Position numbers and translations under genes: made by a program
In this document: piece by piece, positions 2,211-17,433 of the stretch
Position numbering within the stretch: the first letter of the stretch is position 1
How the letters are laid out: each line of letters begins with the position of its first letter
The notes under the pieces: generated by a model
Databases searched by the model: none
What the model was told of the DNA's origin: nothing
Seen by the model: only the letters and a program-made list of their open reading frames with translations
DNA from: Catenulispora acidiphila DSM 44928
Lineage (GTDB): Bacteria; Actinomycetota; Actinomycetes; Streptomycetales; Catenulisporaceae
Assembly (NCBI RefSeq): GCF_000024025.1
Contig: NC_013131.1
Coordinates: 6,386,001-6,450,000 of the forward strand
Length of the DNA stretch: 64,000 nt
Direction: 5' to 3'

Positions 2211-3013
2211 CCGACGAGCAGATCCTCAACGGCGGACTCGCGAACCAGGGACAGGTCGTCCGACGCGGCGACTCCGTCGAGCGCCCCGCTCCCCCGCACG
2301 CCGCCGCTCTCCATGCCTACCTGCGCGCGCTGCATGACGCCGGGTTCACCGGTGTGCCGGAGCCGAGGGATCTGCGCGGGGAGCGCGAAGTGCTGAGCTT
2401 CGTGCCGGGGGACGTGGCGGTTCCGCCGTATCCGCAATGGTCGCGGGGCGAGGCCGAGCTGGCGTCGGTGGGGCGGATGCTGCGGCGGATGCATGACGTG
2501 GCCGCGACCGTGCCGATCCCCGACGCCAAGTGGCCCACCGAGTTCACCGATCCTGAAGCCGGGAGCGGACAGAACCTCGTGCTCTGCCACAACGACGCCT
2601 GCCTGGAGAACATCGTCTTCCGCGACGGCGAGGCGGTGGCGCTGATCGACTTCGACTTCGCAGCGCCTGGGCGGCCGTTGTGGGATCTAGCGATGTGCGC
2701 GTTCTACTGGGTACCGATGCTTCCGGAGGCGATCGCCGCCGTCGAAGACTTCGACGGGATGGACAGCGCGGCTCGGCTGCGGATTCTGGCCGATGCATAC
2801 GGGCTCGACGATGCCGAGCGCCGAGCGTTGCTGAAGCAGTTCCCCGTGATCGTCGCCGTGATGCAGCAGTTCATGAGGGGACGCGTCGCCGCCGGCGATC
2901 CGGTCTTCACCGAGGTCGACGCACAGCGCGATCCGTTGCGCTACACCAAGATCCTGGCCTGGCTTGAGGACCAGGACGCACACTTCCTCACAGCGCTAGG
3001 CGTGCAGGGGTAG
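2207..3013 (+). CDS. APH-family phosphotransferase
   Basis: 268-residue aminoglycoside-phosphotransferase-fold kinase. The catalytic loop reads HNDACLENIVF (Brenner motif HxDxxxxN) and is followed by the metal-binding LIDFDFAAPG motif and a WDLAM segment, all standard for the APH/choline kinase superfamily. The N-lobe is short and I see no clear glycine-rich loop. The start at 2207 is chosen because the ATG overlaps the TGA of the exonuclease gene by ATGA and the fold begins soon after. Longer in-frame starts would run through that gene. The substrate is unknown; many such actinobacterial genes are not resistance determinants. Confidence 0.88.
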   Translation: MTDEQILNGGLANQGQVVRRGDSVERPAPPHAAALHAYLRALHDAGFTGVPEPRDLRGEREVLSFVPGDVAVPPYPQWSRGEAELASVGRMLRRMHDVAATVPIPDAKWPTEFTDPEAGSGQNLVLCHNDACLENIVFRDGEAVALIDFDFAAPGRPLWDLAMCAFYWVPMLPEAIAAVEDFDGMDSAARLRILADAYGLDDAERRALLKQFPVIVAVMQQFMRGRVAAGDPVFTEVDAQRDPLRYTKILAWLEDQDAHFLTALGVQG

Positions 3014-3048
3014 GTCCCGCGACCAGACCAGCCCGCTACATCAGGACA

Positions 3049-3573
3049 TCAGTCATCGAACACATTCCAGCAGATCGCACTCCGAGCCCGCTGGTCATCA
3101 AGCACCAGCTCGCGCAGCTCCGCCGGAATCCGCTCCCGCTGCCAGTCCCGCTCCTTCAGCCGCGCTGCCTCCGCCTCGTCGGCGGGTGCCGCTGCGACCG
3201 CCGCGCGGATCGCGTACGCCGCCGCGCCGAGGTCGTGGGCTGCGACGTGTGCGACGGCTACGGCTTGGCCGGCGGCGAGGGCGGCGAACTTTGCCGGGGC
3301 GGGGCGGCCCTTGGCGGCGGCGTTGGCTGTGAAGGCTGTGTTATGGGCGTCGGTCATGCGGGCTTCGCCGCGGATCCAGGCTCGGCCGACGGCGATGGCT
3401 TCGCGGGGGCGGGGGTCGTGCGGCTGGTCTTGTTCGAACAGGGGCAGGACGTGTTCGGCGCATTGGGCGGCCCACTCGGCGAGCTGCTGGTGGTGCTCGT
3501 CGGTCAGCGTTCCGCCGCGCCGGACGGTGATCAGTCGGGGGTCGCGTTCGGAAGGCAGGATCATGCGCTTCAT
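3049..3573 (-). CDS. Imm-5-like (putative immunity) protein
   Basis: 174-residue all-alpha protein. The conserved features are WAAQCAEHVLPLFE near residue 34, DPRPREAIAVGRAWIRGE around residues 52-69, an Ala-rich helical middle, and a C-terminal ERIPAELRELVLDDQRARSAICWNVF. I recognise this pattern as the Imm-5-like family often annotated 'putative immunity protein'. No polymorphic toxin, toxin fragment or secretion gene is adjacent: its neighbours are a kinase and a PLP enzyme, so an immunity role here is not supported by context. Assignment to the family is from memory of the motif, not from a search. Confidence 0.75.
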   Translation of the reverse strand: MKRMILPSERDPRLITVRRGGTLTDEHHQQLAEWAAQCAEHVLPLFEQDQPHDPRPREAIAVGRAWIRGEARMTDAHNTAFTANAAAKGRPAPAKFAALAAGQAVAVAHVAAHDLGAAAYAIRAAVAAAPADEAEAARLKERDWQRERIPAELRELVLDDQRARSAICWNVFDD

Positions 3574-3583
3574 CTTGGCCGTT

Positions 3584-4756
3584 CTAGGACCGCAGTGCGC
3601 GCTCCAGGTCCGCGTACAGGTCCTCCGGGTCCTCCAGTCCGACCGATACGCGCAGGACCGCGGCGTGTGGCTTGGCGTCGGCGGCGACCGGGCGGTGGGT
3701 GAGGGAGGCCGGGTGCTGGATCAGCGTGTCGACGCCGCCGAGGGAGACGGCGTGTGTGATCAGGCGAACCGAGTCCGCCACGCGCGCGGCCGCCTCATAG
3801 CCGCCACGGACCGCCATGGCGAACACCGCACCGGGCCCGGACATCTGGCGGCCGATGAGGTGCTGCGGGTCGCACTCGGGCAGCCCGGGGTAGTGGACGC
3901 GCTCCACCGCCGGGTTCGCCAGGAGGCGGTCGACCAGCTTCTCAGCGTTCTGCGACTGGTGGCGGACGCGCAGCGGCAGCGTCTGCAGACCGCGGTGCAG
4001 CAGGTAGGACGAGAGCGGGTGCAGGACCGATCCGGTGATGGCGCGGATCGGGCGCAGGCGCTCGGCCCAGGCGTCGGTGGTGGCGACCACGCCGGCCAGC
4101 ACGTCGCCGTGGCCGCCGAGGTACTTGGTGGCGCTGTGGACGACCAGGGTCGCGCCGAAGTCCGCGGGCTTCTGCAGGATCGGCGTCGCGAAGGTGTTGT
4201 CCACCAGCAGCGGGACGCCGCCGCACTGCTCGGCGACGCGCGCCAGGTCCAGCAGCTCCAGCGTCGGGTTGGCCGGCGTCTCCAGGATCACCAGGCCGGT
4301 GTCCGGGCGGCGCGCGGCGGCGATGCCGTCGGCGGCGGCCCAGGTGACCTCGGTGCCGAGCAGGCCGCTGGCCAGCAGGTGGTCGCTGCCGCCGTACAGC
4401 GGACGCACCGCGACCACGTGCCGCTTGCCCTCGGCGGCCGCGGCCAGCAGGCAGGCGGTGATCGCGGCCATGCCGGAGGCGAACGCGACGGCGGCCTGCG
4501 TGTTCTCCATCCGCGCCAGCGCCTCCTCGAAGCGCGCGGTCGTCGGGTTCCACAGCCGCTGATAGACGTGGCTGCCGCCGCTGATCGGGGTGCCGCCGGT
4601 GGCGAGCGTCTCGTAGCTGTCGCCGCCGAGGCCGACGTTCGGCAGCGGGTTGGTCGTCGACAGATCGATCGGCGGGACGTGGACGCCGAGGGCGGCCAGG
4701 TCGTCCCGTCCGGCGTGGACGGCGATGGTGTCGGGCAGTGCGGAGGCGGGCAGCAT
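3584..4756 (-). CDS. Cys/Met metabolism PLP-dependent enzyme (cystathionine gamma-synthase/lyase type)
   Basis: 390-residue fold-type I PLP enzyme of the trans-sulfuration family. Visible signatures: SGMAAI (cofactor phosphate region) near 94, LVDNTFATP with the pyridine-binding Asp at about 186, and SATKYLGGHGDV with the Schiff-base Lys at about 211 preceded by Ser208. The N-terminus (STTNPLP...GGDSYETLATGG) is less canonical than MetB or CGL, so gamma-synthase, gamma-lyase and methionine gamma-lyase remain possible. It is transcribed divergently from an Lrp/AsnC regulator with 110 bases between the starts, an arrangement that suggests amino-acid-responsive control. Confidence 0.9.
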   Translation of the reverse strand: MLPASALPDTIAVHAGRDDLAALGVHVPPIDLSTTNPLPNVGLGGDSYETLATGGTPISGGSHVYQRLWNPTTARFEEALARMENTQAAVAFASGMAAITACLLAAAAEGKRHVVAVRPLYGGSDHLLASGLLGTEVTWAAADGIAAARRPDTGLVILETPANPTLELLDLARVAEQCGGVPLLVDNTFATPILQKPADFGATLVVHSATKYLGGHGDVLAGVVATTDAWAERLRPIRAITGSVLHPLSSYLLHRGLQTLPLRVRHQSQNAEKLVDRLLANPAVERVHYPGLPECDPQHLIGRQMSGPGAVFAMAVRGGYEAAARVADSVRLITHAVSLGGVDTLIQHPASLTHRPVAADAKPHAAVLRVSVGLEDPEDLYADLERALRS

Positions 4757-16109: not shown

Positions 16110-16140
16110 GAGGCCCAGGGTTTTGCCCGCCCTGGGCCTC
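16110..16140. terminator. Terminator hairpin between the COQ4-like gene and the RNA array
   Basis: Perfect 11-bp stem (GAGGCCCAGGG / CCCTGGGCCTC) with a 9-nt loop, 60 bases after the COQ4-like stop and on the far side of the minus-strand RNA array, so it can terminate both converging transcripts. A second hairpin (CCACACT / AGTGTGG) abuts it at 16142-16160. Confidence 0.8.
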
Positions 16141-16193
16141 TCCACACTGCTCTAGTGTGGTGCCGTCGTGGTACGCACGCCGATGGCGTTTAA

Positions 16194-16300
16194 GAAAGCA
16201 GGTGAGTCTGAGGCACCGCGCTCTTCCTATTGAGCTATCCCCGCATGAGAGAGCAGGGAACGGGGCTCGAACCCGCAACCTCGGTGTAGGACCCGCTTCC
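16194..16300 (-). ncRNA. Y RNA-like ncRNA with circularly permuted tRNA-like module (copy 2, Gly-like)
   Basis: Read on the minus strand, the outer ends pair: GGAAGCGGGT (16300-16291) with ACCTGCTTTC (16203-16194), 10 bp with two G-U pairs. Inside lies a permuted cloverleaf: CACCG (16286-16282), variable loop AGGTT, T stem GCGGG, T loop TTCGAGC, T stem CCCGT, acceptor 3' strand TCCCTGC (16259-16253), 8-nt loop TCTCTCAT, acceptor 5' strand GCGGGGA (16244-16238), TA, D stem GCTC/GAGC, then CGGTG (16218-16214). CGGTG pairs with CACCG as an anticodon stem and GCGGGGA with TCCCTGC as a 7-bp acceptor. Position 73 is U and the acceptor resembles tRNA-Gly. The opposing CC and CAGACTC form an asymmetric internal loop. 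Bacterial YrlA RNAs have this architecture. Confidence 0.8.
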
Positions 16301-16336
16301 GGTCGATCCGGCGATGGACGGCGAGGACTGAGCTTG

Positions 16337-16472
16337 GAGCGAGAATCTGAAGCTTCTCACTGCTGCCTCTGCCAACTTGGGCTACCTCCGCACGGGATGC
16401 GGAGAGAGGGATTCGAACCCCCACTGTCGCAGTGTTCGTCAATTTCAGGCGTCACATTAAGCTTGGTCGCTC
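16337..16472 (-). ncRNA. Y RNA-like ncRNA with circularly permuted tRNA-like module (copy 1)
   Basis: The same layout as copy 2, 36 bases upstream on the same strand. Outer helix: GAGCGA (16472-16467) with TCGCTC (16342-16337), then the internal loop CC against CAGATTC, then AAGCTT with AAGCTT. The tRNA-like part reads CACTGC (16434-16429), a 6-nt variable segment, T stem GGGGG, T loop TTCGAAT, CCCTC, acceptor 3' strand TCTCCGC (16405-16399), 7-nt loop ATCCCGT, acceptor 5' strand GCGGAGG (16391-16385), TA, a D arm closed by GCC/GGC, then GCAGTG (16363-16358), which pairs with CACTGC. About 24 extra nt sit between the AAGCTT helix and CACTGC, so the fold is less tidy than copy 2. It begins 21 nt after the upstream gene's stop. 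Confidence 0.72.
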
Positions 16473-16493: not shown

Positions 16494-17228
16494 TCACGCG
16501 AAGAGGTAACCGAATACCGCCTCGCCGACCCTCTGGTCCGTGACCTCGAAGGTGTTGGCCTCCTCGCGGGCGAACTTCACCGCCTGGCTGAGCTTCTCCA
16601 CACGCTCCACGAGCTCGTTGACGCGCTGCGCGGGCAGGGCGCCGGAGAACTTGGTCTGCGTCCAGTAGCCGACGGCGATGTCCTCGTAGTAGACCTCGAC
16701 CTGCGCCGGGTGCTTCTCGGTGGCCTCGGCCTTCACGTGGTTGCGCGGCACCTTCTTGGTCCGCAGCGTGCGCACGGCCTCGGTGCGGAACCAGTCGGTG
16801 GACGGGTCGTGCGTCCAGGACTCGGCGGCGTCCAGCACCGGCAGCTTCTTGACGAAGGTGTTCAGGTCCGCGAGCTGCTTCTCCAGGAAGAGCAGGTAGG
16901 ACACCGGCACGTCGCGCAGCAGCGTGGTCCCCTCGACGACGACGTCGGCGTGCGCCACGCAGTTCGCCCAGTCCTTGGTGGCGGTGACGTCGAACAGCCG
17001 GGTCAGGCCGACGGCTATCTGCCGCAGCACGTCCTCGGCCTTCACCTGCACGCGCGTGGACTCCGGCGGCAGCTGCTCGCCGTCCTCGTCCTTGGGCTGG
17101 TAGGTGCGGCTCAGTCCGGTGAGCAGCGGCTGCTTCTGGACGTCGTGGTGGGCCTGGGTGAGGTCGGCGTAGGACTTGCTCTTGACGCCTTTCTCGATGG
17201 CGATGATCTGGCTGAGCTTCGTGGCCAT
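16494..17228 (-). CDS. Conserved actinobacterial protein of unknown function (probably DUF7873)
   Basis: 244-residue soluble protein. It starts MATKLSQIIAIEKGVKSKSYADLTQAHHDVQ-like, contains SRTYQPKDEDGEQLPPEST, a VTATKDWANCVAHADVVVEG strand pair, KKVPRNHVKAEATEKHPAQVEVYYED and a C-terminal VTDQRVGEAVFGYLF. I recognise it as a family spread through Streptomyces-like genomes and some phages and believe it is DUF7873; this is recollection. The ATG at 17228 is chosen over one 15 bases upstream because GGGGGA sits 6 bases ahead of it. The gene runs directly into two Y RNA-like ncRNAs on the same strand, suggesting co-transcription and a possible RNA-related role (inference). Confidence 0.85.
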   Translation of the reverse strand: MATKLSQIIAIEKGVKSKSYADLTQAHHDVQKQPLLTGLSRTYQPKDEDGEQLPPESTRVQVKAEDVLRQIAVGLTRLFDVTATKDWANCVAHADVVVEGTTLLRDVPVSYLLFLEKQLADLNTFVKKLPVLDAAESWTHDPSTDWFRTEAVRTLRTKKVPRNHVKAEATEKHPAQVEVYYEDIAVGYWTQTKFSGALPAQRVNELVERVEKLSQAVKFAREEANTFEVTDQRVGEAVFGYLFA

Positions 17229-17433
17229 GATGGTTCCCCCCATGCGCTAGGGCATGTCGTGAGTCTGATTTGTTCGATGCAGAGCCTATGGACAGGTGCC
17301 GACAGTCCGTACGCCGGGTCGGCGGGGTCCGTGGCGTGCACATGATGATGGCAGAGCGGACCGCGACGGTTGTAGGCAATTTCGCCGTCGCGGGACGGGG
17401 TTCGGGGTGCTGGCTGTTCCCTGGCTCATTGAT

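Follow-up and report, generated by a model that had tools for sequence, protein, structure and literature searches.

A structured RNA with two permuted tRNA-like modules accompanies DUF7873 genes in actinobacteria and phages

The DUF7873 locus and its downstream RNA

The window, by which we mean the whole 64,000-nucleotide stretch of Catenulispora acidiphila DNA that was analysed (6.39–6.45 Mb of a genome that forms one contig of 10,467,782 bases), carries on its minus strand a gene of the DUF7873 family and, between that gene and a GC-rich hairpin, a structured RNA. An earlier note on this DNA had described two tandem RNAs here; the tandem arrangement of two modules, which we call TLS1 and TLS2, stands. 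Judged by sequence comparison, both are modules within a single conserved RNA of about 300 nt directly 3′ of DUF7873, and hence there is no need to assume two distinct transcripts of 107 and 136 nt. The features are as follows.

16494–17243, minus: DUF7873 (PF25283) gene, 249 aa; Pfam 393.5 bits, cut-off 27
16468–16472, minus: 5′ strand (GAGCG) of basal helix P1, complementary to 16337–16341
16441–16464, minus: leader period-6 repeat, AAGCTT AATGTG ACGCCT GAAATT; degenerate in the window copy
16358–16434, minus: permuted module TLS1, with anticodon-like stem, T arm, acceptor, 3-bp D stem and A at position 73
16434–16429 and 16363–16358, minus: TLS1 anticodon-like strands
16422–16406, minus: TLS1 T arm, from the sequence
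16405–16399, minus: TLS1 acceptor 3′ strand (TCTCCGC), then a loop
16391–16385, minus: TLS1 acceptor 5′ strand (GCGGAGG)
16382–16365, minus: TLS1 D arm
16342–16352, minus: inter-module repeat, conserved columns of alignment A4
16337–16341, minus: 3′ strand (CGCTC) of P1, directly after the inter-module repeat
16308–16313, minus: 5′ strand (CGCCGG) of the outer helix of the TLS2 domain, pairing with 16178–16183; helix 1 of alignment A3
16194–16300, minus: TLS2 domain, a basal helix and a permuted tRNA-like module with T at position 73
16291–16300 with 16194–16203, minus: TLS2 basal helix, in which 7 basal pairs covary
16286–16282 and 16218–16214, minus: TLS2 anticodon-like strands
16276–16260, minus: TLS2 T arm
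16259–16253, minus: TLS2 acceptor 3′ strand (TCCCTGC), then a loop
16244–16238, minus: TLS2 acceptor 5′ strand (GCGGGGA)
16235–16220, minus: TLS2 D arm
16178–16193, minus: conserved TTAAACG motif and 3′ strand of the outer helix; columns of A3, helix 1
16110–16141, minus: GC-rich hairpin 3′ of the RNA, from its sequence a probable terminator

Both elements read, as the earlier note had it, in the order T arm, 3′ acceptor strand, loop, 5′ acceptor strand and D arm. Comparison of related loci resolves the RNA into two domains, each composed of a basal helix with U-N-R repeat segments and capped by a permuted tRNA-like module; the anticodon-like stems run on into the basal helices, and there is no anticodon loop. 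An internal loop with CC opposite CAGAYTC, pointed out before, is present but is a piece of a wider feature, the period-6 U-N-R repeats beside the basal helix. In divergent phages, by eye, a hairpin seems to stand in for the first module. Single-sequence folding did not recover the whole cloverleaf of the window copy, and the folding energies of this copy are unremarkable (z of −1.92, −1.19 and −1.43).

Recurrence and covariation of the permuted modules

Modules downstream of other DUF7873 genes were sought with a scanner that demands a T stem and a TTCRANN loop, acceptor strands of 7 nt that form six pairs or more, and a D arm. The scanner was written after set 1 had been seen, which joins a viral set (the best 80 of 278 relatives) and a bacterial set (the best 80 of at least 576), and was run with its criteria unchanged on a second, divergent viral set (set 2, the best 80 of 173). 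In set 1 this one scanner found one module or more in 151 of 160 loci (71 of 80 viral, with none in the other nine, and 80 of 80 bacterial). Among the controls, 2 of the 800 shuffles, none of the 160 reverse complements and 5 of the 160 upstream stretches had one; the shuffles, here as in set 2, were mononucleotide shuffles that keep base composition only. In set 2, with one candidate over an ARAGORN tRNA removed and 2 of the 80 loci left out for having less than 200 nt of downstream DNA, the same scanner found a module in 64 of 78 loci and none in 14; the controls gave a single hit each among 390 shuffles, 78 reverse complements and 78 upstream stretches. Across all sets, a module lies downstream in 215 of the 238 DUF7873 loci scanned. 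By eye, one or two modules are also visible 3′ of the gene in Arthrobacter phage Mimi, Gordonia phages Phendrix and Ziko, Rhodococcus phage NiceHouse, Pseudanabaena phage Pam2, Klebsiella phage KpLz-2_45, two Rhizobium phages and two Vibrio phages; none was seen after the gene in Pseudanabaena phage PA-SR01, and no clear one in a Microcoleus phage. At one further locus (L007, 2797–2977) a cobalamin riboswitch lies 3′ of the DUF7873 locus, and the first tRNA-like module there looks degenerate.

It is worth considering whether these elements could be pseudogenes, junctions between tandem linear tRNA genes, or misread linear tRNAs. Such confusions do arise: tandem tRNA-Asn genes yield weak matches to the covariance model described below (a match near 50 bits was, when inspected, a pair of this kind), and in 8 of the 80 bacterial relatives ARAGORN calls a linear tRNA of 87–89 nt that overlaps the leader and TLS1 (for example, locus L163, 3761–3847). 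The isotypes of those eight calls, however, differ between close relatives (Ala, Leu, Phe or undefined), and the calls are probably spurious. In the window itself ARAGORN predicts no linear tRNA. Furthermore, removal of candidates overlapping ARAGORN tRNAs cost one candidate in each of 10 of the 160 loci, eight of these being the bacterial loci just named, and left a module in 150 (80 of 80 bacterial and 70 of 80 viral, with ten viral loci now lacking one), the set 2 count given above having been made after the same removal; loci with two modules fell from 100 of 160 (59 of 80 bacterial, 41 of 80 viral) to 91 (51 bacterial, 40 viral). Covariation of acceptor pairs across the permuted junction largely refutes such an artefact, which we regard as extremely improbable.

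This covariation was sought in related loci using two alignments with rows picked by the scanner, A3 (49 TLS2 units) and A4 (51 TLS1 units), and both support the permuted stems. In A3, both partners change without loss of pairing in 28 of 31 pairs, 96.5% of cells are paired compared with 38.9–46.6% after sliding, and the observed value is attained by 0 of 500 shuffles on any measure. All seven permuted acceptor pairs of TLS2 covary in this alignment, with the caveat that the scanner demands acceptor, T-stem and D-stem pairs, so these helices are favoured in both A3 and A4. Helices 1–3 of A3 are not selected for; of these, the outer helix 1 has changes on both sides in 6 of 6 pairs, with 97.6% of cells paired, and helix 3 covaries in 7 of 7. 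In A4, covariation backs the T stem and the acceptor of TLS1, and the D stem varies hardly at all. Likewise, 58 of 87 distinct loci have basal helix P1 beneath TLS1, compared with a mean of 41.7 (sd 2.2, maximum 49) on swapping partners between loci, the replacements in P1 including GAGCG/CGCTC, GGACA/TGTCC, GAGTA/TACTC and AGGGA/TCCCT. All seven acceptor pairs covary in both modules, as expected from the earlier proposal that these stems pair in permuted order. Taken with the recurrence of the modules in related loci relative to shuffles, this confirms that the permuted tRNA-like structure of both elements is real and not a product of chance. The acceptor stems vary freely (108 and 59 distinct stems), and acceptor and discriminator are not constant among modules; together with the absent anticodon loop, the freely varying acceptors argue for a general rather than an amino-acid-specific tRNA mimic.

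Linkage to DUF7873, the repeats and the module ends

The AF2 model of DUF7873 is a confident fold (pLDDT 93.0, pTM 0.67) for which Foldseek gives no match at E ≤ 0.001 in PDB or BFVD; the best VIA row is 3kdq_A, a protein of unknown function (Z 9.5, rmsd 7.7, 147 aligned). Neither search brought up a recognised RNA-binding fold, and by sequence there is no convincing PDB relative (best E 0.23). Structural rows to Pur-alpha and to Cascade subunits were set aside as weak. PHROGs has no family for three of four DUF7873 proteins and one weak match, and no text on DUF7873 was found in the open-licence PMC literature. The family occurs in 6 of 198 genomes of a phylum sample (two genera); in the order it has 73 copies, spread over 72 of the 147 genomes searched. 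Of 50,697 phage records 73 contain it, as do 4 of the 72,556 records in a plasmid collection. Among the best 80 bacterial matches the genera include Catenulispora, Streptomyces, Actinomadura, Kutzneria, Kitasatospora, Spirillospora and Actinacidiphila; four loci named Catenulispora or Catenulisporales are 93–95% identical. The host itself has a second DUF7873 copy (3312371–3316096) with the same downstream RNA. The system is carried by actinobacterial chromosomes and by many phages, in the latter often within tRNA arrays: the gene lies amid annotated tRNAs in five named phages, and at least one linear tRNA is found in 48 of 80 viral loci of set 1 and 55 of 80 of set 2, although no annotated tRNA lies near it in phages Pam2, KpLz-2_45 and PA-SR01 or in the Microcoleus phage.

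The earlier note had also remarked on the tandem arrangement beside a DUF7873-type gene, and this arrangement, in which the stems covary strongly, is upheld. The 147 genomes of the order were searched with a covariance model of TLS2 (R1). At 59 bits or more, a line set after the list had been viewed (59.4 against a next score of 56.1), R1 matches in 73 genomes, namely all 72 with DUF7873 and one of the 75 without it. A match lies 138–287 bases from every DUF7873 copy (73 of 73, in 72 genomes); the window's TLS2 scores 126.9 bits, R1's alignment containing the window copy. Four matches at 49.6–56.1 bits, when inspected, adjoin TROVE. The one genome without the gene, G278, has a match of 129 bits with no DUF7873 reading frame upstream, possibly a relic. 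These observations bear on the view that the RNA acts chiefly from the 3′ UTR to control the DUF7873 transcript, for example through autoregulation by DUF7873, or to stabilise it, and that its tRNA-like parts are signals for processing or stability. Its position would suit this role, in that the RNA, where found, lies downstream on the same strand with a median of 104–159 nt (across the three sets) from stop codon to first T arm. However, G278 keeps the RNA without the gene, and double tRNA mimicry with CCA would probably exceed what such an element needs; we give this view only a slim chance.

The period-6 repeat is located in the leader and between the modules. Its unit is ANNNTN in set 1 and, by eye, RNNNTN (U-N-R every six bases) in divergent phages, and runs of at least four ANNNTN units occur in 51 of 93 leaders as against 0 of 930 dinucleotide shuffles. 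No helix between leader and inter-module repeats was found, pairing along the registers tried being equal to expectation, and the repeats are therefore taken to be unpaired or protein-bound. Coding by the repeat was considered and judged unlikely, with starts and stops inconsistent across 58 leaders.

In divergent phages N73-CCA is encoded in 60 of 69 modules, a set 2 count that may include near-identical loci; counting only distinct modules with loops of at most 40 nt, it is encoded in 43 of 88 in viral set 1 (19 of 40 TLS1, 24 of 48 TLS2) and in 14 of 114 in bacterial loci (11 of 49 TLS1, 3 of 65 TLS2). As in most bacterial copies, neither TLS1 nor TLS2 of the window encodes it. Among linear tRNAs, CCA is encoded in 39 of 245 in the viral set 1 loci, in 116 of 155 in set 2 loci and in 3 of 32 in the host genome (from 30 loci out of 58 matches). 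The frequency of CCA in the modules thus tracks that in true tRNA genes, and in phages exceeds it. A T precedes G1 in 41 of 48 viral TLS2 modules, and this junction and the CCA pattern suggest that the module ends may be processed.

Given such ends, one can imagine a tmRNA-like or chargeable RNA, with modules that are processed, aminoacylated and used in translation, and with the repeat as a short tag frame of alternating K/R/N and L/F. The permuted order, the encoded N73-CCA and the T|G junction would all fit, as would the KLKLKL-like translation of the set 1 repeat and the presence, in 29 of 58 leaders, of a stop within six codons. In the other 29, though, the stop lies 16–93 codons on; 17 of the 58 lack an in-frame start (which a tmRNA would not need); the RNNNTN repeat of divergent phages, by eye, loses the polar–hydrophobic alternation; acceptor and discriminator are variable; and Rfam has no tmRNA match in the window. 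We therefore think this role quite improbable. In Gordonia phage Phendrix a tmRNA model match of 89 bits (L010, 2075–2603) lies where no tmRNA is annotated.

Ro60, the proposed particle and known systems

The likeness to bacterial Y RNAs, put forward in the earlier note, is partly supported: the label fits the core, which is permuted in the same order as in YrlA, but not the system, since many DUF7873 genomes and viral records have no match to TROVE and thus to a Ro60/Rsr partner. Rfam cmscan at the gathering score gives no match in the window. A search with the YrlA model RF02553, a check that had been proposed, finds with relaxed settings a sub-threshold match to TLS2 (34.1 bits against a gathering score of 69; E 1.5e-5 over 801 nt), and its match to TLS1 is insignificant (18.8 bits, E 0.4). 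Four Streptomyces-type loci have other YrlA-like RNAs about 1 kb from a TROVE match, and the score does not separate the two kinds, the DUF7873-linked modules listed scoring 23.7–37.1 and the five RNAs at these four TROVE-side loci 31.5–41.2, all below 69. What does differ is the base: in an alignment of seven, the TROVE-side RNAs share a conserved basal segment absent from the window RNA, whose basal part aligns poorly with the six TROVE-type RNAs. At one locus (L198, 1453–1558 and 1713–1777, minus) two tandem YrlA-like RNAs lie upstream of one TROVE gene; they share the basal segment GGTGCG..AGGCA..TACTTC with an orphan copy in the host. This separate YrlA-like RNA of the host genome (near 3,472,970; 36.4 bits) lies away from the host TROVE and resembles the TROVE-side RNAs.

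The locus could accordingly be read as a divergent pair of ordinary Y RNAs with Ro60/Rsr on their basal stems and DUF7873 as a neighbour or accessory factor. Besides the shared core and the overlapping RF02553 scores, the gene counts offer this reading something: the proposed search of the host genome found one TROVE match, at 361 kb; TROVE is present in 45 of the 72 DUF7873 genomes of the order; among 14 control genomes the sole DUF7873 genome is also the sole TROVE genome; and four of 27 viral records contain TROVE, which in two cases is no more than about 5 kb from DUF7873. In one of the two (L099) a 502-aa TROVE frame (356–1864) precedes DUF7873 (2995–3729) by about 1.1 kb, and in Rhizobium phage RHph_TM21B TROVE (about 113363–114106) follows DUF7873 (107514–108275) by about 5 kb. 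Some phages thus do link the system to Ro60, though not as a rule, and with TROVE also present in the host, Ro60 may bind the RNA. Against the Y RNA reading, no TROVE match was found in 27 of the 72 DUF7873 genomes or in 28 of 32 viral DUF7873 records (5 of 5 and 23 of 27, some records being fragments), and co-occurrence in the order is not significant (147 genomes: both 45, DUF7873 only 27, TROVE only 35, neither 40; Fisher p 0.069). Also, the RNA follows DUF7873 in 73 of 73 copies, but for the 20 pairs on one contig that were checked TROVE is at a distance of 67 kb to 5 Mb; in the host some 2.95 Mb separate it from the nearer of the two DUF7873 copies, and it is not encoded near the window RNA. 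With the different basal segment of the TROVE-side RNAs, this leaves a Y RNA pair unlikely in our estimation.

We lean, with slightly more belief than doubt, towards a two-component ribonucleoprotein locus in which DUF7873 and the structured RNA directly downstream of it would form a particle that displays tRNA mimics and is largely independent of Ro60. DUF7873 would bind the U-N-R repeat regions, several copies to each RNA, with the tRNA-like heads pointing outwards. RNase P and 3′ processing might then open the acceptor loop and expose a CCA-type end, as in two-piece tmRNA, and the heads could engage enzymes that recognise any tRNA through its elbow and acceptor. Such a particle would act like the Rsr–YrlA tether, with a protein of its own. 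More tentatively, and here our doubt is the greater, DUF7873 and its RNA could represent a phage-borne class of ribonucleoprotein whose protein is unrelated to Ro60: DUF7873 oligomers would coat arrays of U-N-R hexamers, and RNase P would open the permuted domains into nicked, CCA-ended mimics that capture or redirect the host tRNA machinery during infection, the system having later been domesticated in Streptomyces and relatives. From its recurrence in Streptomyces and in many phages the pair looks like a so far undescribed RNA–protein machine that imitates tRNA; open-licence PMC titles and the starts of abstracts yielded nothing on a DUF7873–RNA system, on permuted tRNAs with Y RNAs in Actinobacteria or on permuted tRNAs in phage genomes. 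DUF7873, a family of unknown function, gains a candidate RNA partner, YrlA-like tRNA mimicry is seen to exist largely independently of Ro60, and such mimicry extends to phages that infect actinobacteria, cyanobacteria, Vibrio, Rhizobium and Klebsiella.

It is informative to set this RNA beside known systems. Circularly permuted tRNA genes occur in archaea and algae. There, too, the 3′ half precedes the 5′ half, but the modules described here have no anticodon loop and would form no complete anticodon arm on rejoining, so that a module is not a tRNA after rejoining. A passage of PMC10085705 treats such permuted genes; the same source, in the part that concerns us, provides the precedent of a permuted, two-piece tmRNA. 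In that RNA, too, the tRNA-like domain is encoded in permuted order with a loop to be removed; it has a CCA end, which here is encoded in most divergent phage modules. In contrast to two-piece tmRNA, the DUF7873-linked RNA has no tmRNA model match and no consistent tag frame, and as many as two of its domains are tRNA-like. Large phage RNAs such as GOLLD are comparable as large non-coding RNAs within tRNA clusters, and Rfam finds no GOLLD match in the window. The structure and partner gene of GOLLD differ from those of the DUF7873-linked RNA. A passage of PMC9569102 mentions GOLLD.

There is also the comparison with YrlA and Rsr. A passage of PMC8394870 describes YrlA as bound to Rsr and as carrying a tRNA-like domain that DusA and TruB modify; the roles of Salmonella Rsr and Y RNAs are left open in a passage of PMC7790460, and a jumbo-phage survey mentions TROVE with a tRNA-like partner (PMC7824862). 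In both kinds of RNA a basal stem carries the T arm, acceptor and D arm in permuted order, both lack the anticodon loop, and both occur as tandem pairs, in the YrlA-like case upstream of a TROVE gene. Unlike YrlA, the window-type RNA has DUF7873 as its partner gene and, as a rule, no TROVE nearby; it has period-6 U-N-R repeats and a 3-bp D stem in TLS1, a basal segment different from that of the aligned TROVE-side RNAs and, in most divergent phage copies, an encoded CCA.
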